The notes under the pieces were generated by a model that worked only from the letters and a program-made list of their open reading frames with translations, was not told where the DNA came from and did no database searches. Made by a program: the position numbers and the translations under genes. Below, in pieces: positions 12,601 to 57,192 of a stretch of 64,000 bases of DNA. The number at the start of each line of letters is the position of its first letter. Positions within the stretch are counted from its first letter, which is position 1. Origin of the DNA: a virus; the IMG/VR virus record IMGVR_UViG_3300045120_000498, positions 1 through 64,000 of that record; one strand, 5' to 3'.

Positions 12601-15600
12601 CAGCCCCGACTTCGGCCACACCGTGAAGATCGGCGCGTCCTTCGCGTGCTCGACCTCGCCCACGATGTCCGCCGCCTGCCGCGCCGTGTCGAACGGCGTG
12701 CCGACCGGGATCGCGTCACGCCACCGGCCCGCGCTCGCGAGCGCGCGGATCGCCTCGACCCGGCGCGTGTTCGTCATCACTTCCAACAACTGCCACTTGT
12801 GGGACCGCTGCACGTGATCGACGCCCGCGTACACCAGCGAGTAGCGGCCGTCCGGCGAGAAGTACGGCGCGTAGCCGTAGCTGCCCGGCTTCACCCACCC
12901 GCGCGCGGTCAAGTAGTTCTTCGCCGCCTGCGCATCGAAGACGCTCAGGTCGGCCTGCAACCGCTGAAGCGTCCGCGGCCCCGCCGTCGCGTCCGCCGCC
13001 GGGATGAACGACGTGCGGACGTTGACCACGCCCCAGTCCTGCCTCTGCCCTTCGTACGGCGGCGTCTCGCCCGGCAGCAGGTCGCGGTAGCGGCGGTCGA
13101 ACGTCACCTGCATCCGGCCCTCCGGCCGGGTCAGAATCCAGCCCTCGCGAGAGCTTTCCTCCGCGAACCCGTTCTCCCGCAGCAGCGCCGTCAGCGGCCG
13201 CAGCAGCCCGCCATCGTGCTCGCGAAGCTGCGTGAACAGCGCCTCCGGCGCGAGCTTCTGATCCGGCGGCGGAATCCGGTTGTCGTTCCCGTCCTCGGCG
13301 TCCATCCACGTCTCGAACTCGGGCGGCAACGGCAACTCCAGCCGCCGCGCGATGTCGCCCACCGTCCGCGACCAGTGCGGCGACCGCTGCACCGCCGAGT
13401 TCCAGTCGCCCATGATCGCCGCGTAGCCCTCGGCAATCGCCTGCTGCGGAACGCCGTGGCTGTGATCGCCGTACCGGAAGGCGTCCGACGCCAGCACCCG
13501 GAACTCCGGATCAAGCGGCCCCGTCGTGCGGCTCAACCGGTTCGCCATCGCGATGTTCGCCAGTTCGGCCAGCGAGTTCTCGCGGCCAGGCCGCCAGCCC
13601 GACCAGTCCGGCACCGTGATGCTCGAATCGCCACGCGCGATCCGCTCGAACGACTCATACGACGTGGCGTAGATCGACACCGCATCCCACGCCTTCGGCT
13701 GCCACGGATCGACCATCGCGATCTGCGACACCGCCACCGTCCGCCAGCCCGAGTGCTCCGGCAGCGTGTGGTCGTTCTCGGCCACGAACACCCGCACCAT
13801 CCCGTCCCGCGGAACCTCGCTCACCTGCGCACCGTGAAGCTGGCCGTTCGCCTCGCGCACGACCACCGACTGTCCCGGCCGGATGTCCAGCACGGGAGCG
13901 TCCGTCACCGGCGGCGGAGTCAGAGTCGGCCGCGGAGTCGGCCCAGCCCGAGGCGACGCGGGTGGCGGAGTCGTGCGCGTGCTCGCGCGCCGCTGCCGCA
14001 GGTCCGGGTGCGTACGCCGCCACCGCGGCGCCGACGCCACCTGCGCTTCGCCCCACGTTCCGTCCGGCTGGCGCTCCGCTCGCAACACGCGCGTCGTCCC
14101 GGCCGGACTCGTGAACAGAACCAGCCCATCCTCCGACTCGCGCGAGAAGTCCTCGTCCAGCGGAATGAAGTTGCGACGGCCCTGGATGAACACCGACCGG
14201 CCCAACCGGCCACGGAACATCTGCGCGAACTCGCGCTCCTGGTCGTACGTCAGGTTCGGCGGCGCGTCCCGGTAGTCGAACTCGATCCGCTCCACCGGCC
14301 GTGCGCTGTCCGGCGACATCGACACGGCCTCGTCGCCGCCGTTCACGATCACGCCGTCGTAGCCGTCGGCCAGCAGCCGATCCGCGATCATCGCGTCCCG
14401 CTCGGGACTGATCGGCGACACGCCCCGCGTGCGCAGGTCGGCGACCACCGGCTCCACGTACCGCTCCCGGAAGTGATCGTCGTCGCGGCCGGTCACGTGC
14501 AGGGGCTTCTCGATCCGCAGCGCCACCGGCACCGCATCGCCGAACTCCGGATTCGAGTGCGTCGCCGCCCACACCCCGCGGCCCCACGGCGACCGGCCAG
14601 CCATCACGTCGATCCCGTGCGACTCGATGGCGGCCCGCTCGTCCTGCCGCACGCTCAGGTGCATCACACCCCGCACCGCCGACGAACCGAGCCAGTCCGG
14701 CACCTCGCTCTGCGGCAGCAGTTGCGAATCGCCGGTCGTCGCCAGCGGGTTCGGCACCGCCGGGTACTGCACCGCGCCCAGGCCCGCCCCGCGCAGGTCG
14801 GCCGCCTCGTAGCCGACCGCCTGCATATACGCCGTCACCGGGTCAGGCGTGTTCGCCGCATACACCGCCGCCTGGTACTTGTGCTCGTCGTCGCGGCCGG
14901 ACGCCGGATCAGGCAGGTCCGCCGCCACGTCCCGCAGCGTCACGAGCCGCCCTTCCAGGTCGATCACCGAGTTCTGCCCGGCCGTCGCCGACGCCAGCGC
15001 GTTGAACGCGCCCAGCACCCGCGGCGCGTCCAGCGGGTCCGGCGTATATACGCTCGTCATCCGGCGCAGGTCATCGTCGTTCAGCTTCCGGCCGGTGCCG
15101 ACCTGCGTGAACGCCACCGGCGCGCCGACGCCGACGCCCGGCGTCATCCCCTTGTTCGCGACCGACATCCGGCCAATCTCGCGCCGCAGGCCGGGACTCA
15201 TCGGCACGCCGCCCTTCGCCGACCACAGCGCCATGTCCAGCGCCCGCTCCGGGTCGTCCTCGACCGCGCCCTCCCACTGATCGCCCAGCATCCGCGTCAG
15301 GAACGGCTCCACCGCACCGATGGCGTCCGCCCGCTCCGACGGCGTGAGCAGGTCGGCGCGGTACGTCGCCGCGTCCACCTCCAGCGCGTTCGGCAGGTCC
15401 TCGTCGTGGACGATGCTGACCTCGCCGAACGGCTTCCGCGTCTCGTCGAGCAGCGTCCGGTACGGCATCTGCGACCCGTCCGGCAGCGTCGCCATCTCGT
15501 CCTTGCCGACGTACAGCCGGTTGAACTCGCTCGTGCTGATCTTCAGGAACCCGTCCCGCGCCCGCTGCACCGCCGCGATCCGCGCCCGCAGCGTCTCCGA

Positions 15601-18600
15601 GGCGTTCGCACGGGCCTCCAGCAGCGCGTTGAGCCGCACTTCCTCGGATTCAAGCTCGCCCCTGTCCAAGTCCTGCCGTGCGCCCGTGCCGCGCCGCAGC
15701 AGCGCCCGGAGGTGCGCCAGCCGCTTGCCCGCATCCTCCGCCGACAGCCGCGCCATCTGGGGTGAGAGCATCAGCAGCAGCGCCTCGCGGCCAGCTTCCG
15801 CCTGTGACGCGAAGCCCGCGTCCTGCCACGTGCCCAGGTCGCCGGGCACCGGCGTCGGCAGGAACAGGTCAGGCCCGAGGCTGTGCGGCGTCACCTTGAT
15901 CTGCCCGGCCCCCGGCTCGGCGCCCTTCGGGTCGCCCGCGCGCGTCGCGCCCGCCAGCCGCGCCTCGGTCATCCACACCGACCCGTAGTCGCCGCCGACC
16001 CGCACCGCCCGCACCGTGCCGTCCGCGTTCTCGTCGATGTCCTCGACGACGCCCTTCGTGCCCTCCCCGAAGTCCACCTCGTCGCCCACACCCAGCGTCT
16101 CGAACCCGCCCGTGCCCAACCACTGGAACGGCACCCGATGCACCGGCCCGCCCGGCTCGGCCGGGATCACCCGCTGCAAGTCCGACTCCGTGACGATCTG
16201 CCCCGTCTCCAGCACCCCGAACGGCACACCGCTGCGCTCGCCCGCATCGACCATCGGCACCGGCGTCCCGTCTCGCAACACGGCGATGGCGCCCAGCCCG
16301 GCCCGCTCGCCCTTCATCGTCCACGTCGCCGGACGAATCGGAGAATCCGGCGCCGCGCCGATCATCGGCACGTAGTCGGGCGTCACCTGCGTCGTGAAGA
16401 ACGACGCCAACTCCACCGGCTCGCGCCCCGTCCGCTCGGACAGGAAGGCCGACCGCTCATCCGGCGACATCTGCGTCTTCATGTGCCACAGCAGCGCCGG
16501 ACGATCCGCCACCGGGATGCCCGCCTCGTTCAGCAGTTCGTCGAGCGCCGCCCGGTAGTGCTCGTAGTAGCCGACCGAAGCGTCGTGCCGCGGGTTGTTC
16601 GCCATCCACTGCGCCACGTCCGTCAGCCCGTGATCGTCCAGCAGTTGGTTCACGACCGAACCGGTCACCTCGTCCGTCAGCGCCTCCTCCAGCGCCGCGC
16701 CCGGCTTCCTGGTGTCCACGTAGTCGCGCCAGTTCGTCGGGTTCACGCCGTGCAGAAGCTCGTGCACGACCGTCCTGTAGGCCCGCGCGGTCGTCGCCGG
16801 GAACGGGTCAGCCTCGCCCTTGTCCGCGCGCGCCAGCGCCGCCTCGATGTCCGCCTGCACCCGCGGCGCCACCAGCACGTTGCCGTCCCACAGGTGCACG
16901 CCCGTGTGATCGTGGAGCGACTGATCGAAGCCCATCGTCCCGTACGCCCAGCGCGCGTCCGTGCGCGCGGCGATGCCACCCACCACTGCCACCGCATCCT
17001 GAAGGAACTCGCCCCACGTCTTCGGCGCGTGCTCGACCCGGTGGAAGTCCTCCTCCTTCGGCACGAACGACCGCTCCACGAGCGCGTCCGTGACCAGGCC
17101 GTCCTTCGTCTCGACCGTCACCGTCGAGCCGTCCGTGTGCCGGTACGACGCCCACCCCTCGCCCGAGTCCGCGTGCACGAAGCCCGCGTCGCGCGCCACC
17201 GCATCGAGCACGTCCGCTGGCGTGCCCTTCAGCACCGCCTGCGGCGACCGGCCCGCGAGCACGTCGTGCACCATCTGCGCGTCAGCGGAGAACTTCGGTG
17301 GCGTGCCGACCGTCAGCCGCCCCGTCTTCCGCCAGTCGAGCACGTCCGGATGCGCCTCCGGTGCGTCCGGCGTCGAGATGAGCTTCCCGTCCCGGTACAC
17401 GTTCGTGCTGTCCGGCGGACTCGTGAACGTGTGCCCGTCGATCACCCGCTGGAAGTTCCGGTGCTCCGGGACCGACACCCGGCGGCCACGCAGCCGCACC
17501 GTCCGATGACGGGGGGCACCGCGATCCTCTGGAACCAGGTCCCGTAGCACGCTCCCCGCTGCCCCCAAGCGACGTACTACGGCCCGGGTCGAAGGGATCG
17601 CGGCGCCACGGCGCGGACGGAACTGGCCGCCCTTCACCGTCCCCTTCGCGTAGCGTAGATCGTACGGGTGCGTGCGCGAGCGCGCCTCGACCAGCGCCAG
17701 GTACTCGTCCACCAGCGCCGGATCGACTTCCTCCAGTTGCCGCGCCTTCCGCGCAATCGCGTCCGCGCGTCGCATCGCGTCGGCCGGATCGGGCAGCGCA
17801 CCACGCCGCAGCAGCCCTCGCGCCTGCGCCTCCGCGATCCCCAGCAGCCGACACGGACACCCGGCGTGCAGCGGCGGATGGTACTTCCGCAGCACCGCCC
17901 ACGGCCACGCCTTCCCGCTCATCGCGATGCAGTCCGGCGTGTGCTGCCGCACAGTGTTCGACAACTGCCAGTAGGCGCCCTGCGGCGAGGATTCCTGGAG
18001 CCGCTTCATGTCTGCGAACCCCGCCAGCCGACCGGACAACGCCTGCCGTCGCTGCTCGATGTAGCGCCGCTCGCGATCCACGATCTTCTGGATCGCCTGC
18101 CGCCGGTCGCCCGCTTCCTCGATCCGCAGCGCCTTCGGCAGGTCGCGCTTCACCCGGCGGCTCATCTTCCGCATGAACTCCGCCTGGTAGCCACGCTCGC
18201 GGTCCAGCACCTCGTCCACGTCGGTCGGCTCCAACTCGGGATGCTGGCCCATCGCCGCGGCCACGGCCTCGGCGTCTGTCGTCTTCACCGCCGACACCGC
18301 GAGTGACTGGAGCACCATCGAAGTCGCCGCCGCCACCGTGTCCGCGCCGCCCGCAGCCGCCTTCGCGCCGACCATCAGCGGCATCGCCGCGACACCCGAC
18401 ACGCCCAGCGCCCCGAGCAGCCCCGACGCGGCCTGACCCGCGCTCGCGCTCGGCGGAGTCGGCTCCGTCGGCGGCGGATCGGCGTGCGTCTGCGGCTCCG
18501 TCGCCGTCGCCTCGGCAATCGTCCACGCCACGCCGCGCCGCGTCAGAGCGTCCAGCAACTCGTCGCCCGGGTCAGTCGGGAAGTCCACCCCGGACACGTC

Positions 18601-19095
18601 GCTCCACGCCACGCCGCCGTGCACGTGCGCCTCGGCCACCGACTCCAGCCCCGCGAACGGCCCGAACAGGCCGTCGTCGCCCGCGCTCGCAGGCGACGGA
18701 TCGTTCACCGCCGACGGCTCCACCCCCGCCTCTTGCAGCACGAACGTCGTCCGCTCGCGCACCGCCGACTTCAGCCGCACCCGAATCTCGCCATTCGGCG
18801 GCGCGTCCGGCCGCTCCATCACCCCGTAGTGCGGACACCGATCAGGCCGCGCATCCGGGTCGATCCCGAACCACGCCTGCTCGATGTCTCGCAACACACC
18901 GCCGACCACCTCGCGGGCCGACTGGAACCGGCCCTCCGCGAGCGCGAACGCGATGGCGTCCTCGTCCACGTGCAGCACCGGCACCGCGCCGCTCGACCGA
19001 CCGACCGACCGCTCCAGCCACTCGCGCACCGCCGCGTCGATCCGGCGCTCGCCGCGCTGCCGCGCGAACCCGTCCAGGCGCGGAGGCTCGGGCAT
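6646..19095 (-). CDS. Giant polyvalent head-morphogenesis protein, 4149 aa
   Basis: Seen: about residues 300-440 carry a MuF-like minor head segment ending in HTPDC (near 384) and HPPLHAGCPCRL (near 405), and the gene directly follows the portal, the usual MuF position. HELLH occurs at 778-782 and again at 2443-2447, each with a downstream Glu-rich helix: two zincin-type metallopeptidase domains. Residues about 1475-1607 resemble an ADP-ribosyltransferase-like domain. Near 3398, QGTGFAGGF inside a GNAT-like fold suggests an acetyltransferase. Several SH3/KOW-like segments lie between 2600 and 3200. The C terminus has a Pro-rich linker and four related repeats (from about 3559, 3750, 3947 and 4053) built on WPxxxKPAFxDLQxGDVI. 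Known: MuF and portal proteins are often fused to several enzyme domains (polyvalent proteins) and may be injected with DNA. Inferred: a virion-packaged multi-effector. ATG 19095 follows GAGGA inside the portal 3' end. Confidence 0.85.
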   Translation of the reverse strand: MPEPPRLDGFARQRGERRIDAAVREWLERSVGRSSGAVPVLHVDEDAIAFALAEGRFQSAREVVGGVLRDIEQAWFGIDPDARPDRCPHYGVMERPDAPPNGEIRVRLKSAVRERTTFVLQEAGVEPSAVNDPSPASAGDDGLFGPFAGLESVAEAHVHGGVAWSDVSGVDFPTDPGDELLDALTRRGVAWTIAEATATEPQTHADPPPTEPTPPSASAGQAASGLLGALGVSGVAAMPLMVGAKAAAGGADTVAAATSMVLQSLAVSAVKTTDAEAVAAAMGQHPELEPTDVDEVLDRERGYQAEFMRKMSRRVKRDLPKALRIEEAGDRRQAIQKIVDRERRYIEQRRQALSGRLAGFADMKRLQESSPQGAYWQLSNTVRQHTPDCIAMSGKAWPWAVLRKYHPPLHAGCPCRLLGIAEAQARGLLRRGALPDPADAMRRADAIARKARQLEEVDPALVDEYLALVEARSRTHPYDLRYAKGTVKGGQFRPRRGAAIPSTRAVVRRLGAAGSVLRDLVPEDRGAPRHRTVRLRGRRVSVPEHRNFQRVIDGHTFTSPPDSTNVYRDGKLISTPDAPEAHPDVLDWRKTGRLTVGTPPKFSADAQMVHDVLAGRSPQAVLKGTPADVLDAVARDAGFVHADSGEGWASYRHTDGSTVTVETKDGLVTDALVERSFVPKEEDFHRVEHAPKTWGEFLQDAVAVVGGIAARTDARWAYGTMGFDQSLHDHTGVHLWDGNVLVAPRVQADIEAALARADKGEADPFPATTARAYRTVVHELLHGVNPTNWRDYVDTRKPGAALEEALTDEVTGSVVNQLLDDHGLTDVAQWMANNPRHDASVGYYEHYRAALDELLNEAGIPVADRPALLWHMKTQMSPDERSAFLSERTGREPVELASFFTTQVTPDYVPMIGAAPDSPIRPATWTMKGERAGLGAIAVLRDGTPVPMVDAGERSGVPFGVLETGQIVTESDLQRVIPAEPGGPVHRVPFQWLGTGGFETLGVGDEVDFGEGTKGVVEDIDENADGTVRAVRVGGDYGSVWMTEARLAGATRAGDPKGAEPGAGQIKVTPHSLGPDLFLPTPVPGDLGTWQDAGFASQAEAGREALLLMLSPQMARLSAEDAGKRLAHLRALLRRGTGARQDLDRGELESEEVRLNALLEARANASETLRARIAAVQRARDGFLKISTSEFNRLYVGKDEMATLPDGSQMPYRTLLDETRKPFGEVSIVHDEDLPNALEVDAATYRADLLTPSERADAIGAVEPFLTRMLGDQWEGAVEDDPERALDMALWSAKGGVPMSPGLRREIGRMSVANKGMTPGVGVGAPVAFTQVGTGRKLNDDDLRRMTSVYTPDPLDAPRVLGAFNALASATAGQNSVIDLEGRLVTLRDVAADLPDPASGRDDEHKYQAAVYAANTPDPVTAYMQAVGYEAADLRGAGLGAVQYPAVPNPLATTGDSQLLPQSEVPDWLGSSAVRGVMHLSVRQDERAAIESHGIDVMAGRSPWGRGVWAATHSNPEFGDAVPVALRIEKPLHVTGRDDDHFRERYVEPVVADLRTRGVSPISPERDAMIADRLLADGYDGVIVNGGDEAVSMSPDSARPVERIEFDYRDAPPNLTYDQEREFAQMFRGRLGRSVFIQGRRNFIPLDEDFSRESEDGLVLFTSPAGTTRVLRAERQPDGTWGEAQVASAPRWRRTHPDLRQRRASTRTTPPPASPRAGPTPRPTLTPPPVTDAPVLDIRPGQSVVVREANGQLHGAQVSEVPRDGMVRVFVAENDHTLPEHSGWRTVAVSQIAMVDPWQPKAWDAVSIYATSYESFERIARGDSSITVPDWSGWRPGRENSLAELANIAMANRLSRTTGPLDPEFRVLASDAFRYGDHSHGVPQQAIAEGYAAIMGDWNSAVQRSPHWSRTVGDIARRLELPLPPEFETWMDAEDGNDNRIPPPDQKLAPEALFTQLREHDGGLLRPLTALLRENGFAEESSREGWILTRPEGRMQVTFDRRYRDLLPGETPPYEGQRQDWGVVNVRTSFIPAADATAGPRTLQRLQADLSVFDAQAAKNYLTARGWVKPGSYGYAPYFSPDGRYSLVYAGVDHVQRSHKWQLLEVMTNTRRVEAIRALASAGRWRDAIPVGTPFDTARQAADIVGEVEHAKDAPIFTVWPKSGLGTPMRFRVGRDGPMNDKVVEVGIPGAGPHDILTDAEAADAQERVRIAEAEAWNNATDQRTEAIREALTAATDAKRNPLKIGRGRTATMMEATSTEVEAVLKGLRMKPTTRNARRRTTPDGEEVLSRSYKSAETGASIIVDFAKRPTPLGPRYMLTDSRAFKLPGGSVALRRERVRGRVPQNQAEYAGDLTALALELSRANGVPEGKQSEISEVIFSTGTRRGTGYEGFSGLHQLRGYIRLGSAVLPALQRGIERRNNNEHLTNQEKADLYASYKVMAHELLHSVNQDRDPINTYGGVGLEEAVVEELAHVTARDWLGEHGYHDVLEWAQENPSNERVLGSYRGFRQGMRTIMDDAKVPQGERQALLMRLRYGYPGESRLERLNQLMRDANGGTIPSGRESSTRLYGSASDGNRTPPNFQAVLKLDPHPTPLEQGQVVTDRAGNVVRLIGTSGVGQSVEWYGESPDGTQRLYKATELVPIGAGLAPERFPEGADPYRSRDQLRIGSVVTVGDRLGRITATYRQDSAGRNRAGYTIQWLDDGSFDGLAPDSEFGIVQHEAIRPVEGTQVAVLHNGEVKLGTVERDTYGTLGIAIPGEYVRGVTPERALPPLTAKGGSVLWRGREWKAGERVRVGDVEGIVWDTAAGDGITILTQTGEGTRGEPTHRELRVGAGDAGVPVAPTSRLVAAESLAFRPRSLSGAGDVEVMAGRRYVTPSGAPVVVAGFAPTATAGEWAVIDHTGHPWRPSDLSEWVPTVGNIATLSDGEEAYVGSIVRSTRAIGARPQPGEAPGTRSPMKVLGIRPDGRIRAVILGADGSPSGTEVVRWPEFLMLAPGHAQPDRPEPQPPLDPNEIPGGWIRPGGGGMVLAYGDERNPRLSRDDLRTQALMEVAEEPDGGLVKLRQGAEHHMLDPATLRVASRIASGHIVTQGDLVTTSGEDSHDGIVESVDWRGAFPVIKLVGDDTAYDPRHLRVTTLPNGLKAGDPVRYERGTVAGLRTTTSGEGWIIGMAENAPQPTVLVRDMASNAEVLVEPSAVTRWKPEPLTRVEPVVGLSKAMGELGRVDWADTAETRRLGEKIGTSFATQMAEGAAAALVRQADDERGILTGEKPRAFLAASIEAVYTNEAAARTLQTDHPMLYEWAVDSLAQNGVVLPPWVEAPTYDLKSEAWLRSSFSGVFGRSDLRAMVTSTTVRGDHMAVGGSVIDAGGSRVGEFKRAIYPDAQKVHHSYLQIQDSHQGTGFAGGFIRKTEKAYVDAGITAITVSATLKNGAYTWATMGFQVQSNQKATMRGLVDSAARSSRITADEATHLRERIDSGDIAVIEQLAHADGRPAGTERPNFNLGQKVLVGQSWSGVKYLPGHASYVPRPDRPPRPPRAEPPPPPEPPEPPPAPVPVGGVGAVQPDGVMPEWPVLPKAAFTDIQPGDVLRFGETNGYYLKIDRTESGVVHGTVVASNMRGRPVGQSRELLATHYAFDQWTYHGPATPPEPPPAPEPPPSGPLSMENITPGFQFTMTTPDGDVAWTGRVTDTHPAGPSSGRSITVEQKQFDANAPGDNMRWGSGFLMYEDEWQQLVGQRRIRARPPEADPTLGAMQPQGVIPEWPVLPKPAFDDLQVGDVIGRTDGQEKHFVKITDIDGRGQVRGTIVASNVVNTFPVGEQRTVGPLGWGGFGDAWQFYGHVAPDAPAAPGTAPGWVPSAANVTTGFMVRMEDPYGHPDRTFQVAGRFGERMLHLKRWNAETRQWGGDEPWSYDEWDRAAQIGQLHAADAPAGSAEAPTVEASGPLGTPQAFGVLPSWPVREKPAYSALRVGDVIRRSEDGETYWMRVTEANATGRTRTEVIASNVDHRQIGDVRSINSGIWGLDWWTYHGNAESDEPPSAPLVPSAPEAPAGVGAVQRVGVIPDWPEQEKPAFRDLQPGDVISRRDPSTATNYFVRIVENRGSAVVGEVVATDVPATWGIGEERVLTPTGWGADVWRYNGSALASQNE

Positions 19096-19096
19096 C

Positions 19097-21040
19097 TCAG
19101 TCCTCGGTCACTAGCTCGACAGCCGCGATCCACGCATCGCGGAACGCCGGATCGGCCAGAAGCTCCGCCTCCAGCATCGACAGCGCCGACTGCTGCACCA
19201 CGCGCTGCTCCGGCGGCGGCTGCTTCATCGGCGCGCCATACGGGTTCGTCGCCTGATCCACGCCATCGCCGCCGGTCGGCGCGCCCTCGCCCTGACTGTT
19301 CTGCTGCTGCTGATCCGACGGCGGCTGCTCCGGCGGCGCGCCCTGCGCCGCGGCCTGCGCCGCAACCACCGCCGGGTCCTGATAGCCGACCGGCAGGATG
19401 CGTTCCACCGCCTCTGCCGGGTCCTGCATCTCGAACGCCTCGCCGAGCGTGATCGTCAGCAGCGTCCGGCTCAACTCCAGGTTCGTGTTGTTCGGGTCGA
19501 ACGTCCGCGCCGTGTTCGTCACCGCGCTCACCAGGTCAGCCATCATCCGCCGCAGCGCCGACGGCATCTTGAACTCGTAGCTCAGGTCGCGCTCCGTCTG
19601 CGTCTCGTCCTGATCGTCCGCCGCTTCCTGCGTCGCCGTCGTGGTCGTCGTGGTCGTCTCCGCCTCCGGCTCGATGGCCGCCAGCGCCGACCCCTCCGGC
19701 GTCGCGAACTTGTCCAGCCGTCCCACCTCGACGGCCCGCTCGATCACCCGGTCGATGAACGCCCGGTACAGGTTCTCGAACAACTCCTGCCGCGCCTCGA
19801 CGTGCTTCAGCACCGGCAACTCCAGCGCCGTGTTGCCAGCCACAGTGCTCGCGCTCGCGTCGCCCAGGTAGTGCTGCGGCCAGCCGACCGCCGCGCTCAC
19901 CTGCGCCCGGATCATCTGCGTGTCCTGGATGGCGTTCGCCGACCCCGAATCGAGCTTGAACGGCGCCGAGTTCACCGCGTCGTTCTCCAGCAGGATCGAG
20001 GCGTTCGCCGGAGGAATCTTCGCCGCGCCCGTGTCCGGGATCGTCGCCGCGCCCAACTCCGACCGCCGCGAGATGGCCTGCGACGCCAGCTTCGACAACT
20101 GGCCCGGCGTCGCCTTCGCGGTCTGCTTCATGATGTACGCCGCCGCCGCCTTCGCCATGTCCACCCGCGCAGCGACGACCTCGTTGTAGCCCGACAGCCA
20201 CCGGAGCGTCCGCTGCATCGTCGGCACGCCGAACGCCATCTCCGACATCCGGTTCTGCGCGACGTGGTAGATGCGGCCCTCCGCCAGCTTCTCTGCGGGC
20301 GGCGTCGGGAACGTGACGCCTTCCTCTCGCAACACGCGCGGGTTCAGCCAGTGCTCGTAGTAGACGACCTTCTGGCCCATCCGCAGGTTCGACTGCTGAT
20401 CCCGCTCGTTCGTCAGGCCGCCGCGGCCGCCGCTCGTGCCGCCCGCCGTCTTCAGCATGTCGTTCTTGAAGTCCCACTCCGCGTCGGCCTTCTCGACCAC
20501 GTAGTAGAGGATGCGCATGGGGTTGTCCTGATCGCGCACCACGTCCACCACGCGGTCGTGCGGCATCACGGACACCTTCACCTTGCCGTCGTCGCCGCCG
20601 TCGAAGATCGTCAGGAACAGGTTCGACTGGAGCGACAGGTCGGTGCCCAGCGCCATCTGCGCCGCGTACGTCGTCAGCGCCGCCTTGTTGTCCACGTCGT
20701 CCCACGCCTCGTCGATCACGACCTGCACCTCGGGATCGCGCGCACGCGGGCGAGGCACGCCCCGCGCGAACGTAAAGTCGTTCTGCAGGTCCACCGCAGC
20801 GCCCGCCATCGGGTCGGTCCGCCACACGTCCCGCGCCGCGTGCGCCCACTGCCGCCGCGTCGCGATGGGCGCATCCGGCTGCCCCGTCCGGGTCAGGTAG
20901 TCGAGCGCCGTGTACCCGATCATGTCCAGGTCGCGCCGCGTCGCGCGAAGCTCGGTGACGGTCGCCTCGTGCAGCGCCAGGTCGTCCGTCGTGACGACCG
21001 CGAACCCGGTCGCCTCCCGAAGCCGATCAAGCAAACCCAT
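19097..21040 (-). CDS. Portal protein, 647 aa
   Basis: Forms the dodecameric DNA channel at one capsid vertex. The N terminus (LDRLREATGF), the WRTDPMAGAAVDLQNDFTF segment, the long helical clip/stem region and the C-terminal part with GWPQHYLGD and GNTALELPVLKH are typical of SPP1/HK97-type actinophage portals, and the length fits. The C terminus is Gln/Pro/Gly-rich. It overlaps the small gene upstream by 14 bases and is followed by the MuF-type giant gene, the classic portal-MuF order. The large terminase is 16 kb away, which is unusual. Confidence 0.85.
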   Translation of the reverse strand: MGLLDRLREATGFAVVTTDDLALHEATVTELRATRRDLDMIGYTALDYLTRTGQPDAPIATRRQWAHAARDVWRTDPMAGAAVDLQNDFTFARGVPRPRARDPEVQVVIDEAWDDVDNKAALTTYAAQMALGTDLSLQSNLFLTIFDGGDDGKVKVSVMPHDRVVDVVRDQDNPMRILYYVVEKADAEWDFKNDMLKTAGGTSGGRGGLTNERDQQSNLRMGQKVVYYEHWLNPRVLREEGVTFPTPPAEKLAEGRIYHVAQNRMSEMAFGVPTMQRTLRWLSGYNEVVAARVDMAKAAAAYIMKQTAKATPGQLSKLASQAISRRSELGAATIPDTGAAKIPPANASILLENDAVNSAPFKLDSGSANAIQDTQMIRAQVSAAVGWPQHYLGDASASTVAGNTALELPVLKHVEARQELFENLYRAFIDRVIERAVEVGRLDKFATPEGSALAAIEPEAETTTTTTTATQEAADDQDETQTERDLSYEFKMPSALRRMMADLVSAVTNTARTFDPNNTNLELSRTLLTITLGEAFEMQDPAEAVERILPVGYQDPAVVAAQAAAQGAPPEQPPSDQQQQNSQGEGAPTGGDGVDQATNPYGAPMKQPPPEQRVVQQSALSMLEAELLADPAFRDAWIAAVELVTED

Positions 21041-25067: not shown

Positions 25068-27457
25068 GCCGCCTCCGCCTGCCGCTCGGCCATCCGCGCC
25101 ACCAGGCTCGCCATGATCGACTCACCGCTCGCGCCGACCGTGCCCGAGTTCACCGCGTCGGTCACCGCCCGCTTCGCGTCGATCAGGTCCGCCATGTCCA
25201 GGTCGAACGTGTCCTCACCCAGCAGGTAGTAGCTGGAGATGCCGTGCGCGTCGTTCAGGCGCCCGTAGGCCCGGCCCTCGGCCTGATCCACGTCACCCGG
25301 CCGCCAGGGAAGCTCGACGAACGCGACGTGATGCGCCGCGGTGATCGTCAGGCCGACACCGCCGACACTCAGCGAGATGACGATGAGCGGCACGCTCGCG
25401 TCCTCCTGGAACCGGCGCACCTGCTCGTCGCGCACCTGCGGCGCGTCGTCGGCCAGCACCCGCGCGGCCGTCGGGAAGGCGTCCAGCAGCGCCCGCTGCA
25501 CGTCCACGTGCCAGGTGAACAGGATCAGCTTCTCGCCCTGCTCGACGAACTCCGCCGCCCACTCCTTGACCGCCTCGATCTTGCCCTCGCCGGTCAGCCG
25601 CCGCAGCGCAGTCATCCGGCGCAGAGCCTCCGCCGACTCAGCCCGCTTGCCCACCTCGTCGGCGTGCTTCTTCACCGCCGCCTCACGCTCGGCCTTCGAC
25701 AGCCCCGCCAGCGTCGCCCGGAACGCGGAGTCCGCGGCCGCCTGCGTCCGCGCCCACTCCACCACGTCCTTCTCCGCCCGGCGATACTCGGCCCGGTTCG
25801 TGATCGGCAGCAGCACCGACTGGCGCTGCACTGGCGGAAGCTCCGTCAGCACGTCGCGCTTGTCGCGCCGCACGTAGCACACCTCGCGCAGCCGCTCGTT
25901 CAACTCGTCCAGGTGCGACGCGCCCGACACGTCCCAGTGCCCAAGCCCGTCCACGTGCCCGTCGCAGTAGCGCCGCTGGTAGTACCCGCTGCCGCCAAGC
26001 TCCCCGATCCGGCCCAGGATCGAGAGCGGCGACAGAAGCTCAATCGGCCGGTTCAGGATCGCCGTGCCGGTCGCCATCAGCCGCAGCTTCGCGAGCCGCG
26101 CGATGCTACCCGCGGCAATCGTGCGCTGTGCCTTCGGGTTCTTCAGATAGTGCGCCTCGTCGAAAATGACGGCGCCCAGCTTCGTGCCCGTGAACCGCGG
26201 CAGCACCTTCTTCAGGATGTCGTAGTTCACGACCATAAAGTCGGCCGTCGTGTCGTTCAGCGTGATCGTCCGGCGCCCACCGCCCGCCAGCGCGTGCTTC
26301 CGGAAGCTGCCCGCCTTCACCTCGCCCTTCGAGTCGAGCAGCGTGATCGACCGGCCCGGCAGCCACAAGTCAAGCTCGCGCAGCCAGTTGATCTTGACCA
26401 GGTTCGGCACCACGATCAGCGCCGGGAAGGCGTCCGCCGCCTGCACCGCCAGCATCGTCTGCGGCGTCTTGCCCAGACCCATCTCGTCGCCGATGATCCC
26501 GCGGCCGTCCGCGTGCTCCAGCAGGTAGCGAATGCCCGCCTTCTGGAACGGATGCAGCGCCAGCCCCTCGCGGATGCCCGCGATATCCAGGTCGGCGTCA
26601 AGCGCCCGGCTGGCGTCCACCTTCGCGCCGCGCACCGCGTCCGCAGCCTCCACCGCAGCGACCAACTCGGGCGCCACCGTGAAGCCCTTCGACTCCAGTT
26701 CGACCAGCTTCCGCGCTCGCGCCAGCGGCACCTCCCAGCGGGTCGCGCCGCGGTTGAACGTCGCGCCCGTGATCGTCCGCATGATCGCCACGATGTCCGC
26801 CGCGTACGGGAAGAACACCAGCGCCTTGTCGCCGTCAAGCTCGACCCGGCACGGCGGCTTCGCAGCCTCCGCCTCAGCCCACTCCGCGAACGCCGCCAGC
26901 GCGTGCCGAGCACCATCGCTCATGGCCGCGCCGAACCGCTCCGCCCACACCGCCAGCACCGCCGCGCCCGCCGGGCGAACGATCCACCGGCGCAAGTCGC
27001 GGTCCCACGCCCGCGCGTCCTTCGGCACCTCGCGGATGCCCGCCACCATCTCGTCGTCGTACGGGAACCGGACATCGAAGTCGTCGCCGCTCATCACGAT
27101 CCGCGGCTGATTCGCCGTCCGCCGCTCCGCCGCGCGCTTGTGCACCCGGTACGTGTACGCGAACTCGCGCGCCGCGCCTCGCGCCTCGTCGGACGCCAGC
27201 GGCACCTGCGGCACCGGGATCGCGTCGAAGTCGATGCCGTAGCCCGCAAGCTGCCCGCGGTACTTCCGCAGCATCACCCACGCGCCGTACTCGACCTCCG
27301 CGCCCCACGTCGCCTGATCGGTCGCCGCGAGCGCCTGTCCGATGTACGTGTCGGCCTTGTTGAAACCCTGCCCGTTGAGCGCCGTTGCGAAGTCGCCGTC
27401 GCGTGCTGCAAGCGCCTGCGCCGCCCCTACGAGAGTCGGTTCCGTCTTCGTCGCCAT
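25064..27457 (-). CDS. SNF2-family DNA helicase/ATPase, 797 aa
   Basis: Motor domains of superfamily 2 remodellers: motif I GDEMGLGKTPQTM (about 322-334), motif II DEAHYLKN (about 428), motif III ATGTAILNRP, then C-terminal lobe ILFTWHVDVQRALL and motif VI-like DQAEGRAYGRLN, where the usual second Arg is replaced. The N-terminal 300 residues hold two HARP-like substrate-recognition segments as in SMARCAL1-type phage helicases. Likely role: replication-fork remodelling or recombination. ATG 27457 follows GGAAAGG and a stem-loop. Confidence 0.85.
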   Translation of the reverse strand: MATKTEPTLVGAAQALAARDGDFATALNGQGFNKADTYIGQALAATDQATWGAEVEYGAWVMLRKYRGQLAGYGIDFDAIPVPQVPLASDEARGAAREFAYTYRVHKRAAERRTANQPRIVMSGDDFDVRFPYDDEMVAGIREVPKDARAWDRDLRRWIVRPAGAAVLAVWAERFGAAMSDGARHALAAFAEWAEAEAAKPPCRVELDGDKALVFFPYAADIVAIMRTITGATFNRGATRWEVPLARARKLVELESKGFTVAPELVAAVEAADAVRGAKVDASRALDADLDIAGIREGLALHPFQKAGIRYLLEHADGRGIIGDEMGLGKTPQTMLAVQAADAFPALIVVPNLVKINWLRELDLWLPGRSITLLDSKGEVKAGSFRKHALAGGGRRTITLNDTTADFMVVNYDILKKVLPRFTGTKLGAVIFDEAHYLKNPKAQRTIAAGSIARLAKLRLMATGTAILNRPIELLSPLSILGRIGELGGSGYYQRRYCDGHVDGLGHWDVSGASHLDELNERLREVCYVRRDKRDVLTELPPVQRQSVLLPITNRAEYRRAEKDVVEWARTQAAADSAFRATLAGLSKAEREAAVKKHADEVGKRAESAEALRRMTALRRLTGEGKIEAVKEWAAEFVEQGEKLILFTWHVDVQRALLDAFPTAARVLADDAPQVRDEQVRRFQEDASVPLIVISLSVGGVGLTITAAHHVAFVELPWRPGDVDQAEGRAYGRLNDAHGISSYYLLGEDTFDLDMADLIDAKRAVTDAVNSGTVGASGESIMASLVARMAERQAEAA

Positions 27458-28051: not shown

Positions 28052-28882
28052 TTACAGGTACTCGCGGCGGTACTTCTTCTCCGCCTTCGCCTGCGCCGTC
28101 TCGCGCACCGTCTCGGCCGTCTCGCCCGTCTTGAAGACGATGGCCTCGATCAGCTTCTCCGCGTCGGCCTGGTACTCGGCGATCAGCCCGCTCAGGTGGG
28201 TCGCGCCGCGCTGGTGGCGGTCGGAGTTCAGCACGATCACCTGGAGCAGCGCGCTGGTCAACTCGTTGCGCGCCGTGACCAGCGTGGCGACCGTCGTGTA
28301 CCGGAGCCGCAGCGTCGTGCCGTCCGGGTTCGTGATCGCCTTCGCCGCCTTCGCGTCGGCCTTGGCCTGCTTCTCAGCCTGCTTGGCCGCGGCCTCGTCG
28401 GCCGTCAGCCGCTCCGTGCGGGTCAGCAGCCCGGCCGCCTTCAGCCGCGCATACTCGCTCGGCGCGTCCGGGAAGCAGACCGTGCACGCCTTCTCGCCGC
28501 AGTCCGCGACCATCGCCGCCTCGTCGCAGTCGGCCAACTCGACCAGCCAGGCGTACTGCGTCGTCGCGTAGCAGGTCGTGCAGTCCGTCCCGCGGTGCAC
28601 GTGGCCGTTGCCGTTCGTCACCAGGAAGTACCGGTTCCACTGATCGACCGCGTAGCGGGCCTGGTAGGGCGCCGCCGCCTCGCGCAGCCCGGCCAGCGTC
28701 TCGCGAAGCTCCGCGATAGCCGCCTCGCCGCGCTCGACATCGTACGGGCGCGCCTCGCGCCCGCGCGGGTTCATGAACTTCTGCCAGCCCGCGATGGACG
28801 CCTCGGCCTTGGCCTGCGCCGCCCAGTTCTCCGCGAGGAACGTGTCCACCTCGACCGGAGTCATCGTCGCCACGTAGGTCAT
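28052..28882 (-). CDS. Actinophage zinc-ribbon protein, 276 aa
   Basis: About residues 85-150 read FLVTNGNGHVHRG, DCTTCYATTQYAWL and CGEKACTVCFPDAP: two CxxC pairs plus His, a domain I recognise as widespread in actinobacteriophages, with unknown function. The second half is a long Ala/Lys/Glu helix, then a helical domain. It has its own promoter cassette and terminator, i.e. a monocistronic, separately controlled gene. Confidence 0.7.
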   Translation of the reverse strand: MTYVATMTPVEVDTFLAENWAAQAKAEASIAGWQKFMNPRGREARPYDVERGEAAIAELRETLAGLREAAAPYQARYAVDQWNRYFLVTNGNGHVHRGTDCTTCYATTQYAWLVELADCDEAAMVADCGEKACTVCFPDAPSEYARLKAAGLLTRTERLTADEAAAKQAEKQAKADAKAAKAITNPDGTTLRLRYTTVATLVTARNELTSALLQVIVLNSDRHQRGATHLSGLIAEYQADAEKLIEAIVFKTGETAETVRETAQAKAEKKYRREYL

Positions 28883-28897
28883 CTCGTCGCGTCCTTT

Positions 28898-28946
28898 CCG
28901 CGGGGTCCCTCCCCGCACACAGAGAATAGCACACTCCGTGTGTATC
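28898..28946 (-). promoter_or_regulatory. Palindromic promoter plus stem-loop leader
   Basis: Minus strand: GATACACACGGAGTGTGCTATTCTC (extended -10 TGC-TATTCT), stem GCGGGG-AGGGA-CCCCGC (28916-28900), RBS GGAAAGG, start 28882. Confidence 0.75.
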
Positions 28947-29347
28947 TACGCAGTCGCGACGGCGGCGCCTGTCATGGCCGCCGCCATGATGCTCATGAGC
29001 GTCCCCCGCGGAATCGAGTGCGACCCGTGCATCGGCACGATCACCTTCCGGCCGCCGCCCGGCGGCTCGAACACCGCGTGCGACCCCTTCTGACCGACCT
29101 TCGTGAAGCCCGCCTTCGTGAGCATCTTCCCGATCTGCTTCGGCGTCATCGCCGGGAACCGCGAGCCGACGAACCTCCGCGGCTGGCCCGACTCGATGAA
29201 CCGGCCCGAGTTCGGGTCGGTCGGATGTAGCGCCTTGCTCCACGGCACGTGCGGGCCGCGCGCCTCCATGATCCGGGCCGCCCGCAGCGCGACCGGCCGC
29301 GTCAGGCCGCGCGCCTCGAACCGCGCCACGAGCGCCCAGAACGTCAC
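28946..29347 (-). CDS. HicA-like protein with N-terminal extension, 133 aa
   Basis: Residues about 67-125 match the HicA/YcfA dsRBD-like fold: MTPKQIGKMLTKAGF, then GSHAVFEPP with the catalytic-type His, then VPMHGSHSIPRGTL. Family members are mRNA interferases. Residues 1-66 are an unrelated basic extension. No HicB-like antitoxin gene is adjacent, so this may be an orphan, a repurposed RNA-binding protein or one paired with a distant partner. It is the last gene of the dehydrogenase cassette. Start GTG 29347, 9 bases after the preceding stop. Confidence 0.7.
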   Translation of the reverse strand: MTFWALVARFEARGLTRPVALRAARIMEARGPHVPWSKALHPTDPNSGRFIESGQPRRFVGSRFPAMTPKQIGKMLTKAGFTKVGQKGSHAVFEPPGGGRKVIVPMHGSHSIPRGTLMSIMAAAMTGAAVATA

Positions 29348-29356
29348 GCGCCCAGT

Positions 29357-30985
29357 CTACGCCGTGCGAATCGCCTCCGCCGTGCGCAGCGCGAGCGCCG
29401 CCAGTGTCAGCGTCGGGTTCGCCGTCCCCACCGTCGGGAACAGCGAGCTACCGGCGATCCACAGGTTGCGCACGTCGTGCGACCGGCCGAACCCGTCCGT
29501 CACCGAAGTCGCCCGGTCGGCACCCATCTTCGTCGTGCCCATCAGGTGCCCAGCCCCGAACGGGAAGCCGACGTGCGTCCGCTCGGTCGCGCGAAGCTGA
29601 TCGAACAGCCGCTCGTGCAGCACCGCCGCGTCCGCCATCCCGTCCCGCACGTACTGGCCGATGGTGAACGCGATCCGCGGCCGCGGCAGCCCGATGGCGT
29701 CGAGGTGCGCGAAGTCCGGCGTGATCCGGTTGGCCGGGTTCGGCAACTGCTCCATCAGCGACGCGAACCGAATCTCGCGGGCCACATGATCGTGCCACCG
29801 CTTCGCCAGCGCGTTGCCGCCCTCGCGCAAGTCCACGAACGGCTGGCCGTCCGGCTGCGACGTGAACTCGAACGTCGGGTCGCCAATCGGGAACTTCCAG
29901 CCGTCGTTCCCCACCTCCACCCGGAACGCCGACTTCTGGCCGCGCGTCGGCGCCTGCCGCGGCGACTCGATCCCAGCCGTGCTCAGTGGCCCGCGCTGCG
30001 GGAACACCGGGTCGGCCGACAGCGCGTACGACAGTTGGATGGGGTGATCCATCAGGTTCCGGCCCAGCATCCCGGACGAGTTGCCGACCCCGTGGCCGCC
30101 GTTCGCGGCCAGCATGATCTTCGGCGTCTCGACGGCGTTCGCAGCCATCACCACGACGTTCGCGAGCACCGTCACGTCCGCCCTGTCCGGCTGCCGGTAC
30201 ACGACCCCTCGGGCGGAGCCGTCCGCGTTCAGCAGTACGTCCCACACGACCGCGTTGAAGATCAGCTTCGCGCCGCGCGCGGTCGCCTGGTCGAGGTGGA
30301 TGAGCGCGTCGTACTTCGCGCCGACCGGGCAGATCGGGATGCAGTTCGAGCAGCCCTCGCACCGGTCGCGATTGTTGAAGCCCTCTGTGTTGCGAGCCTG
30401 CGGCGTCGCCTCCACCCGGAACCCGATCTTGCGCGCCGCCGTGTCGATCACCTTGTCCAGGTAGCTCGTCGGCACCGCCTCCATCGGGAAGCCCGCCGAC
30501 CGCGGCGATCCCTGCGGCGCGTTGTCGTTCCCGGCCACGCCAATCTCGTGCTCGGCCTTCACGTACCACGGTTCCAGGTCGTTGTACGCGAGCGGCCAGT
30601 CCGCGCCCACCCCGAACAGCGACTTCATCCGGAAGTCCGACGGCAGCAGCCGTGGCGTCGTCCCGAGCCAGTGCCACGTCGTGCCGCCCACGATCCGCTC
30701 GTAGGTCGAGCCGAACGGGTCCGGCCCATCCTGGATGAAGTAGCCGGTGCCCGGCACGCCAATCTCCAGCACCGTCGGATGCGGCGCCCACGCCGTGTTC
30801 GGGTACGGCGACTCCGGCACCTTGGCCGTCGCCGCACGGAACACCTTCACCGCCGCCGCCCGGTCGATGGGCGGCCCGGCCTCCAGGATCGTCACCTTGC
30901 GCCCGGCCTTCGCGAGCTTCGCGGCGATCAGCGCACCGGCCACGCCGGAGCCGACCACCGCCACGTCTGTGCTGATGGTCGTCAC
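29357..30985 (-). CDS. GMC oxidoreductase, FAD-sugar/polyol dehydrogenase alpha subunit, 542 aa
   Basis: N-terminal Rossmann motif VVGSGVAGALIAAKLAKAG (about 10-28) binds FAD. Near 209-221 is CEGCSNCIPICPVGA, matching the extra cysteine cluster (iron-sulfur type) of bacterial FAD-glucose, gluconate and sorbitol dehydrogenase alpha subunits. The C-terminal GMC domain has GAGHLMGTTKMG and GTANPTLTLAALALR with the catalytic His/Asn region. It oxidises a sugar or polyol and passes electrons to a cytochrome or quinone. GTG 30985 overlaps the stop of the gamma-subunit gene. No cytochrome (beta) subunit is in the window, so a host acceptor would be needed. Confidence 0.85.
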   Translation of the reverse strand: MTTISTDVAVVGSGVAGALIAAKLAKAGRKVTILEAGPPIDRAAAVKVFRAATAKVPESPYPNTAWAPHPTVLEIGVPGTGYFIQDGPDPFGSTYERIVGGTTWHWLGTTPRLLPSDFRMKSLFGVGADWPLAYNDLEPWYVKAEHEIGVAGNDNAPQGSPRSAGFPMEAVPTSYLDKVIDTAARKIGFRVEATPQARNTEGFNNRDRCEGCSNCIPICPVGAKYDALIHLDQATARGAKLIFNAVVWDVLLNADGSARGVVYRQPDRADVTVLANVVVMAANAVETPKIMLAANGGHGVGNSSGMLGRNLMDHPIQLSYALSADPVFPQRGPLSTAGIESPRQAPTRGQKSAFRVEVGNDGWKFPIGDPTFEFTSQPDGQPFVDLREGGNALAKRWHDHVAREIRFASLMEQLPNPANRITPDFAHLDAIGLPRPRIAFTIGQYVRDGMADAAVLHERLFDQLRATERTHVGFPFGAGHLMGTTKMGADRATSVTDGFGRSHDVRNLWIAGSSLFPTVGTANPTLTLAALALRTAEAIRTA

Positions 30986-31449
30986 GACGGCCGATCCTCC
31001 CACTTCGGGAACCCGAGCTTCGTGCTGGACGGCTGTGCGAAGTCGTCCACCGACGCCCACGCGAGCGCGCCCACGTAGTCCGCCGTCTTGTTGCTCACCA
31101 GCCCGCTGTACCAGTAGACCAGCACTTGCTGTGCCGTCGCCGCGTTGCCCGGATCGTTCAGCGCCCCGGATGCCAGGATGCCGTTGAACGTGGTCGGCGG
31201 ATGCGCGGAGCGCACCGTCGCCTGCACGAGCTTCAGGATCGCCGCAGGGTCGAGCGCCGCCAGGTATTGCGCGCCCACCGTGCGGCTCAGGTCGAACTCG
31301 TCATCGGTCAGCGCCTCGGACAGAGCCATGAACTCGTCCAAGGTGACGGGGCCGGTAGCTGTCCGGGCCATGCTCGGCCAGGCAGCGAGAATCGCACCGG
31401 ACGCGACCCCCACCAGTGCCCCCCGGCGGGTCGTCCGTGTTGTGTCCAT
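30982..31449 (-). CDS. FAD-dehydrogenase small (gamma-type) subunit, Tat signal, 155 aa
   Basis: TTRRGALVGVASGAIL at residues 6-21 is a twin-arginine signal; the helical remainder, with ALSEALTDDEFD and VLVYWYSGLV, matches the small subunit family of sorbitol/glucose/gluconate dehydrogenases. In known complexes this subunit carries the Tat signal and escorts the FAD subunit across the membrane. Its gene directly precedes and overlaps the alpha gene (GTGA), as in bacterial operons. ATG 31449 is almost leaderless behind a -10-like TAGCAT. Confidence 0.75.
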   Translation of the reverse strand: MDTTRTTRRGALVGVASGAILAAWPSMARTATGPVTLDEFMALSEALTDDEFDLSRTVGAQYLAALDPAAILKLVQATVRSAHPPTTFNGILASGALNDPGNAATAQQVLVYWYSGLVSNKTADYVGALAWASVDDFAQPSSTKLGFPKWEDRPS

Positions 31450-31470
31450 GCGTCGATGCTACATGGCGGA
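31450..31470 (-). promoter_or_regulatory. Possible independent promoter of metabolic cassette
   Basis: Minus strand CCATGTAGCATCGACGC then ATG 31449: a -10-like TAGCAT six bases from the start codon, implying a leaderless message. The CACAC-N3-GTGTG operator of other units is absent. Confidence 0.4.
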
Positions 31471-56319: not shown

Positions 56320-56521
56320 CGAAGAAGTCCAGGCCCCGGCCCATCGTGCCGCGCAGGTCGATCCACCCGACGTACGTCTCGCCGTCTCGCAACACGACCA
56401 GGTTCCCGAGTTCGTTGCCCATCACCACGTCGCCCGGCCGCAGCCGCTCATCGGCCAGCACCTCGACCAACTCCCCGATGGTGAGCGGCTGGAACGGCAC
56501 GCTGGCAGGCCAGTCGGTCAC
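56291..56521 (-). CDS. Small protein, paralogue of 45186-45362, 76 aa
   Basis: Shares IGELVEVLADERLRPGDVV and GNLVVL...YVGWID with the protein at 45186-45362. Contains one GTGTTGCGAG (VLRD). ATG 56521 overlaps the VWA gene stop (ATGA). Function unknown. Confidence 0.55.
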   Translation of the reverse strand: MTDWPASVPFQPLTIGELVEVLADERLRPGDVVMGNELGNLVVLRDGETYVGWIDLRGTMGRGLDFFDEGADRAAG

Positions 56522-57192
56522 GTGCTCGACGACGGCTTCGTCGTGACCGTCTCCGCCTCGTCCTCGTCCGGCACCGCCTCCGGCTTCACGAAGGCGTCGT
56601 CCTGCGCCTTGCCGCTACGCAGGTAGCTCCGCGTGTCGATCACGCCGCGGTCACCCATGTAGCCCATCCCCTGCGCCGACACGTTCCCAGCCCCGGCGCC
56701 CTTTGTCATGTTCCGGCTCGACACCGACTCCAACTCGGCCGCCAGGAACACGAACGTCCACCGGCCCGTCTTCGTCCGCTTCCGCATCACCTTCTGGAGC
56801 CGCGCCCAGCCGTCCTTGTCCGCGTCGAACTCGGTGCTCGCGTTCTCCTGCCCGTCGGTGATCACGACCACCAGCGTGCGGCTGTCGTCAGCGTCCGTCT
56901 TGTCCAGCTTCCGGATCATCTGCGCCGTCGCGTCGTACAGCGCCGTCGAACCGCGCGGCTGCACCTCCAGGCCCGACCAGTCGTCGAGCGGCTTGCGCTT
57001 CTCGTGCTCGAACTGCTCGTCGAAGTAGACGACGCGCATGTCCGTGCGCTCCGACCCGGGCGCGCCCTGCACGCCCTCCAGCCACTTCGCCAGGTCCTTC
57101 GTCGCGTGCGGATTCGTCCACCGCATCGACCCGGAACGGTCGATCACCAGCCCGATGTGCGTCTCGCCCTCGAAGCCTTCGTCCGTGCTCAT
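56518..57192 (-). CDS. VWA-domain protein, 224 aa
   Basis: A full MIDAS is visible: DRSGS at residues 18-22, GSTALYDA near 83 and VITDGQEN near 110, the metal-ion-dependent adhesion site of von Willebrand A domains. The C-terminal 70 residues are Gly/Asp-rich with a tail of Glu and Ser. VWA proteins in bacteria often pair with MoxR-type ATPases, but none is in the window. ATG 57192 after GAAGGGAG. Confidence 0.75.
   Translation of the reverse strand: MSTDEGFEGETHIGLVIDRSGSMRWTNPHATKDLAKWLEGVQGAPGSERTDMRVVYFDEQFEHEKRKPLDDWSGLEVQPRGSTALYDATAQMIRKLDKTDADDSRTLVVVITDGQENASTEFDADKDGWARLQKVMRKRTKTGRWTFVFLAAELESVSSRNMTKGAGAGNVSAQGMGYMGDRGVIDTRSYLRSGKAQDDAFVKPEAVPDEDEAETVTTKPSSST

Follow-up and report, generated by a model that had tools for sequence, protein, structure and literature searches.

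The window analysed here (the whole stretch of DNA under study) covers the initial 64 kb of a viral record 127,514 bases long (GC 70%), whose minus strand carries 125 of the 138 coding-like open reading frames (ORFs). Terminase, portal and SNF2 helicase genes lie within the window, and those for tail sheath, baseplate wedge, tape measure and RecT are found further along the record, which is therefore that of a contractile-tailed phage. A gene for a Ku-like DNA end-binding protein (phrog_4873) is also located beyond the window, at record positions 68130-68969 (L003 4130-4969, minus strand). The portal gene is adjoined by a single ORF of 4149 aa (window 6646-19095, minus strand) that is matched by no Pfam family and only marginally by PHROGs, and is 99% conserved across the 895 residues covered by L097. 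Since the relatives of gene 28052-28918 among GenBank phages are confined to actinobacteriophages (Mycobacterium, Microbacterium, Arthrobacter, Gordonia, Rhodococcus and others), the host is likely to be an actinobacterium.

The cassette of interest, a gamma (hitchhiker) subunit gene followed by an alpha (catalytic) subunit gene, sits inside this genome with phage genes on either side (Table 1). The alpha protein scores above the cut-off for both Pfam domains GMC_oxred_N and GMC_oxred_C. It aligns over its full length with the alpha subunit of the Burkholderia cepacia enzyme (BcGDH; PDB 6a2u/8grj/8hdd; phmmer E 3e-113, ~41% identity) and is also matched by fructose dehydrogenase (FDH; E 3e-97), the Gluconobacter form of which (PDB 7w2j, 8jej) is ~36% identical. 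An AlphaFold model computed from 24 alpha sequences (pLDDT 85.4, pTM 0.89) was superposed by Foldseek on 8jej, 8grj and 6a2u (FDH and BcGDH) with a TM of 0.91, as compared to ~0.65 for other GMC enzymes, among which C-glycoside and pyranose oxidoreductases/oxidases are the next, more distant neighbours. The gamma protein reaches 45 bits against PF12318 (FAD-SLDH; cut-off 24.2) and an E of 1.9e-8 against the BcGDH gamma chains (8grj/6a2u, phmmer); its model is best matched by 6a2u_A and 8hdd_C with a probability of 1.00 and a modest E of 2e-3, and its N-terminus bears the Tat motif TTRRGALVG. The stop codon of gamma and the start codon of alpha overlap by the 4 bases GTGA, and an overlap of 4 bases is likewise present in the relatives L002, L010 and L012; a longer GTG ORF from 31060 was rejected as the alpha gene because the relatives start at the overlap. 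The first-pass annotation had described a Tat-signalled small subunit gene and a GMC alpha gene with an iron-sulfur Cys cluster, overlapping by four bases, and all of these features were recovered. Homology and predicted fold confirm the pair as gamma and alpha subunits of the bacterial FAD-glucose/fructose dehydrogenase family. The likeness to BcGDH includes the small Tat hitchhiker encoded upstream, the histidine bearing covalent FAD, the catalytic His and Asn and the surface Fe-S cysteines; alpha/gamma architecture and fold are also shared with FDH and with the FAD-sorbitol dehydrogenases (PF12318).

Table 1. Features of the cassette and of its surroundings (window positions, unless the record is mentioned)
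Feature	Position	Strand	Basis
Gamma (hitchhiker) subunit, 155 aa	30982..31449	-	PF12318, phmmer, Foldseek
Twin-arginine codons R8 R9 of gamma	31423..31428	-	invariant across gamma alignment
Alpha (catalytic) subunit, 542 aa from GTG, GMC oxidoreductase	29357..30985	-	Pfam, phmmer, Foldseek
Alpha His105 (WHW), equivalent of FAD-linked His105 of BcGDH	30671..30673	-	invariant in alignment; role PMC6719666
Fe-S motif C209-x2-C212-x2-C215-x3-C219-P (CEGCSNCIPICP)	30329..30361	-	Pfam Fer4, alignments
Alpha His480, equivalent of catalytic His476 of BcGDH	29546..29548	-	invariant in alignment; role PMC6719666
Alpha Asn523, equivalent of catalytic Asn519 of BcGDH	29417..29419	-	invariant in alignment; role PMC6719666
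TAGCAT, -10-like hexamer 6 nt before gamma ATG; predicted leaderless-type promoter	31456..31461	-	consensus match
hicA-domain gene, 133 aa, own TAGACT-N6-GTG, directly downstream of alpha	28946..29347	-	PF07927
Copies of GATACACAC-N-GTGTGCTAT	27520, 28946, 33231, 41348, 5810; record 65661, 79788, 120471	window copies -	repeat

In BcGDH, FAD is joined to His105, catalysis is carried out by His476 and Asn519, and Asn475 and Asn474 are positioned for contacts with glucose (O2/O3) (PMC6719666). The phage alpha retains the FAD GxGxxG motif, and His105, His480 and Asn523 are invariant over the 24 aligned alpha sequences; no loss of FAD or catalytic residues, a point raised in the first-pass annotation, is thus observed. 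The positions of Asn474 and Asn475 are occupied by Ala478-Gly479, a replacement also encountered in the cytochrome-free relatives whose motif was read, and the substrate-site Asn is changed with respect to Gluconobacter FDH as well. The proposal of a FAD-dependent sugar/polyol dehydrogenase therefore holds for the family of both subunits, whereas its 'sugar/polyol' part is a guess because the glucose-contacting pair is Ala-Gly, and glucose itself is an unlikely substrate on the basis of these residues. As no characterised cytochrome-free member of the family was found in the literature searched, a substrate is not transferable from a relative.

The two subunits of BcGDH are linked by a disulfide between alpha Cys213 and gamma Cys152, cysteines that are not conserved within the family and are hence not a defining feature (PMC6719666). 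Both partners are gone in the phage pair, where the Cys213 position is a Glu and gamma is devoid of any cysteine. Among the 25 relatives with an identified gamma, alpha Cys213 and a gamma C-terminal Cys were both present in 19 and both absent in 6, neither ever being found alone. This joint presence or absence supports a binding of alpha to gamma similar to that of BcGDH. Over the relatives L010-L089, the interchain disulfide was gained or lost on both subunits together.

A difference from the family that the first-pass annotation had not noticed concerns the Cys cluster. The 3Fe-4S cluster of BcGDH is held by Cys212, Cys218 and Cys222 (PMC6719666), in a C-x2-N-x2-C-x3-C-P motif equivalent to that of ferredoxins minus its second Cys. 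The three family ligands are all present in the phage alpha (C209, C215 and C219), and a fourth Cys, residue 212 (codon 30350-30352, minus strand), is found at the position of BcGDH Asn215, so that residues 209-220 read CxxCxxCxxxCP, a complete canonical 4Fe-4S motif. Fer4 (PF00037) is matched just above its cut-off (21.4 versus 21.1 bits). None of the 81 fetched relatives displays a Cys at this position, which is N in 64, S in 15, A in 1 and Y in 1. A change from AAC to TGC involves two bases, more than a single read error; a second record covering the codon was looked for and none was found. The AlphaFold model is poor at this loop (pLDDT < 50 at residues 211-216) and the cluster type is therefore not readable from it; a 4Fe-4S cluster in the phage alpha is a prediction. 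We tentatively propose, as a possibility that falls short of being the likelier one, that a 4Fe-4S cluster replaces the family's 3Fe-4S in the phage enzyme, the fourth ligand having been regained through this one codon, that the cytochrome-less complex could reduce menaquinone directly, and that a self-sufficient version of the family would have been exchanged between unrelated phages. Should the cluster be of this type, the potential of the electron exit would drop and direct reduction of menaquinone without a cytochrome subunit would become possible.

No cytochrome c family and no multihaem ORF was detected across the 127.5-kb phage record. Within the 4 kb flanking the fetched relatives, multihaem ORFs accompany GDHs of the Burkholderia/Pseudomonas type and are almost wholly absent in the clade of the window, where many members still carry gamma upstream of alpha. 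The cytochrome-free alpha/gamma pair is thus, judging from these neighbourhoods, the bacterial state of the clade, and a cytochrome may be encoded elsewhere in those genomes. The absence reported in the first-pass annotation is real; its reading as a missing part or a loss by the phage was rejected, since the nearest bacterial relatives are also devoid of a neighbouring cytochrome. The trihaem cytochrome c (beta) subunit that characterises the three-subunit GDH/FDH complexes, BcGDH and Gluconobacter FDH included, is absent here, and membership of these complexes is not claimed.

The alpha phylogeny was obtained from a quick IQ-TREE run in which branches are supported by SH-aLRT only. The window alpha groups with that of a second viral contig as its sister (SH-aLRT 96), within an actinobacterial clade supported at 100. 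The other members, Paeniglutamicibacter sulfureus, Nocardioides terrigena and Intrasporangiaceae strain URHB0013 (L010-L012), display 70% alpha and 54-58% gamma identity to the phage pair. They share with it a short gene overlap and the absence of a neighbouring cytochrome and of an interchain disulfide, and differ from it by their ordinary chromosomal loci (all three with gamma) and by an Asn where the phage alpha has its additional Cys. The comparison with bacterial alpha subunits suggested earlier thus gives a nested position and points to a bacterial origin, the cassette having most likely been acquired from an actinobacterium. The alpha family is rare in the sampled actinobacterial genomes (2/396, 1/397 and 2/397, the query genomes themselves being counted in). 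Plasmids were rejected as a recent source, plasmid relatives being all below 60% identity and mostly rhizobial.

The second carrier (L002/G001, IMGVR_UViG_3300047508_000070) is a 33-kb IMG/VR contig of an unclassified contractile-tailed phage, with major head protein and baseplate genes. Its gamma-alpha pair is 73% (alpha) and 61% (gamma) identical to that of the window; it differs by a Shine-Dalgarno-led gamma (AAGGAGGTACATATG) and a 3Fe-4S-type motif. Besides the cassette, only one distant vWA-like gene is common to both phages (tblastn E 1e-5), which on this gene content are unrelated. This gene lies at 56518-57192 (minus strand) of the window and at about 26425-27027 of G001, with 30% identity. 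As the two phages share little beyond the cassette, the latter would either have moved between unrelated phages or have been acquired on two occasions from close donors. L096, a fragment of a phage nearly identical to that of the window (99% helicase), originates from metagenome 3300047508, as does L002 according to its contig name, indicating that both phage types live side by side.

Scans of 2.9 million IMG/VR viral contigs with alpha or gamma revealed no carrier beyond L002. No alpha/gamma family of this kind was found in PHROGs, no convincing pair in INPHARED and no pair in BFVD, where the nearest entries are giant-virus GMC proteins. Two GenBank matches labelled 'phage' were set aside: DQ115838 (AS-1 contig_31, 1.5 kb) is unannotated and too short to show a phage gene, and MT835479, an unverified faecal scaffold, is unannotated, is devoid of the Cys motif and lies among bacterial-looking genes. 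The open-access literature yielded no publication describing a FAD-GDH pair in a phage. GMC (AA3) genes are listed without further detail for vinegar viruses in a virome paper (PMC9602057), so that GMC genes of phages, taken by themselves, are not entirely new to the literature. The cassette is apparently an undescribed and rare phage gene set, recognisable as a member of a known enzyme family.

The accessory status of the cassette can be appreciated from a related phage, L098 (helicase 69%, terminase 65% identity), in which terminase and helicase are separated by 1.6 kb as compared to 9 kb in the window, and whose 87.9-kb contig contains no alpha anywhere. This comparison supports a moron-like, accessory set. 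An element GATACACAC-N-GTGTGCTAT, promoter-like and repeated in eight copies along the record, most of them followed by a GC hairpin and an AAAGG leader, is presumably the 'palindromic' promoter class implied in the first-pass annotation; it is absent at the gamma start. The hexamer present there resembles the leaderless arrangement of M. tuberculosis, with TANNNT centred 7-12 nt upstream of the start site (PMC3898074). On the gene-bearing strand, TANNNT precedes a start codon by 6 or 7 nt in 27 cases where ~15 would be expected, an approximately two-fold enrichment, and the other strand has 3 such cases. As a prediction only, TAGCAT-N6-ATG agrees with a host among the actinobacteria and with separate expression of the cassette. 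Of the suggested moron with its own non-palindromic promoter, the accessory position and a promoter-like element distinct from the phage repeat are retained, the element itself being predicted from a consensus match. The span of 28946-31449 initially attributed to the cassette is too wide, as it takes in the separate hicA-like gene. The product of the latter carries a 66-aa N-terminal extension, and its full 133-aa form is kept in L098 (64%) at 19532-19927, unlinked and in opposite orientation; it was rejected as a cassette part owing to this different location. No HicB of family PF15919 was found in the record.

Between the two phages, dN/dS is about 0.21 for alpha and 0.24 for gamma, values that include evolution in bacteria before capture; they are consistent with purifying divergence and are not proof of selection within the phage. 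They bear on whether the cassette could be passenger DNA, a captured bacterial fragment without a role in infection. Its rarity (one further viral contig in 2.9 million) and its absence from L098 would agree with this explanation. It is nevertheless unlikely in view of the open frames, the paired genes, the conserved catalytic and export residues, the purifying divergence and the retention of the same pair by two unrelated phages.

The cassette is more probably an auxiliary metabolic moron, picked up from a bacterium (most likely an actinobacterium) and kept for a Tat-exported extracytoplasmic dehydrogenase that would feed electrons to host respiration, the host Tat system and respiratory chain being assumed. 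The mechanism can be summarized as follows. The cassette would be transcribed from its own predicted leaderless-type start. By analogy with the solved relatives, alpha would fold in the host cytoplasm with covalent FAD and its Fe-S cluster and bind gamma, whose twin-arginine signal would direct export of the folded pair via the host Tat system. Outside the membrane, His480 and Asn523 would oxidise an alcohol group on a small substrate, either sugar-like or a polyol and probably not glucose, and thereby reduce FAD. The electrons would leave through the surface Fe-S cluster and reach an acceptor of the host, either menaquinone or a cytochrome c from its respiratory chain. A host acceptor is proposed since a dedicated cytochrome subunit is encoded neither in the phage record nor in the neighbourhood of the bacterial genes. 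The benefit may be respiratory energy or an altered chemistry of the wall zone during infection. The initial interpretation is thus kept as regards the FAD/GMC alpha with its Tat gamma, bacterial origin, phage carriage and accessory position, and abandoned as regards cytochrome loss and the inclusion of hicA.

The same location outside the membrane, predicted by the Tat signal, would also suit an action on the host surface, in which the exported enzyme oxidises wall or receptor sugars or glycosides, thereby preventing the adsorption of later phages or changing the wall (superinfection exclusion or receptor masking). C-glycoside and pyranose oxidoreductases are indeed among the more distant structural neighbours, and an accessory set common to unrelated phages is typical of such morons. 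We regard this as rather unlikely: active sites of the BcGDH type handle small soluble sugars, and the tree groups alpha with genes of bacterial chromosomes, which have no part to play in phage exclusion. Quite improbable is an oxidase in which the reduced FAD, deprived of a cytochrome partner, passes its electrons to O2 and generates H2O2 outside the cell; it would account for the absence of a cytochrome from the phage record and beside the nearest relatives and is in line with pyranose and C-glycoside oxidases being the next nearest folds, but the Fe-S motif and the hitchhiker belong to electron-transfer dehydrogenases, and an Fe-S electron exit would serve no purpose in an oxidase. A structural or protective role in the virion, suggested by the FAD-containing GMC proteins that build the mimivirus genomic fibre coating its genome (virion role shown in PMC9512402) and by the giant-virus proteins being the nearest viral structures in BFVD, is scarcely credible given the Tat signal on gamma, the bacterial operon structure and a likeness to the GMC oxidoreductases of mimivirus and orpheovirus, viruses of eukaryotes, at the level of fold only (13-16% identity by fold alignment, TM ~0.65).

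The cassette belongs to a cytochrome-free branch of the FAD-dehydrogenase family, and its alpha subunit offers a natural, predicted change from 3Fe-4S to 4Fe-4S in a family whose enzymes serve in glucose sensors. A phage-carried, exported dehydrogenase of respiratory type would carry auxiliary metabolism beyond the cytoplasm, to the outer side of the host membrane, by way of the host Tat system.
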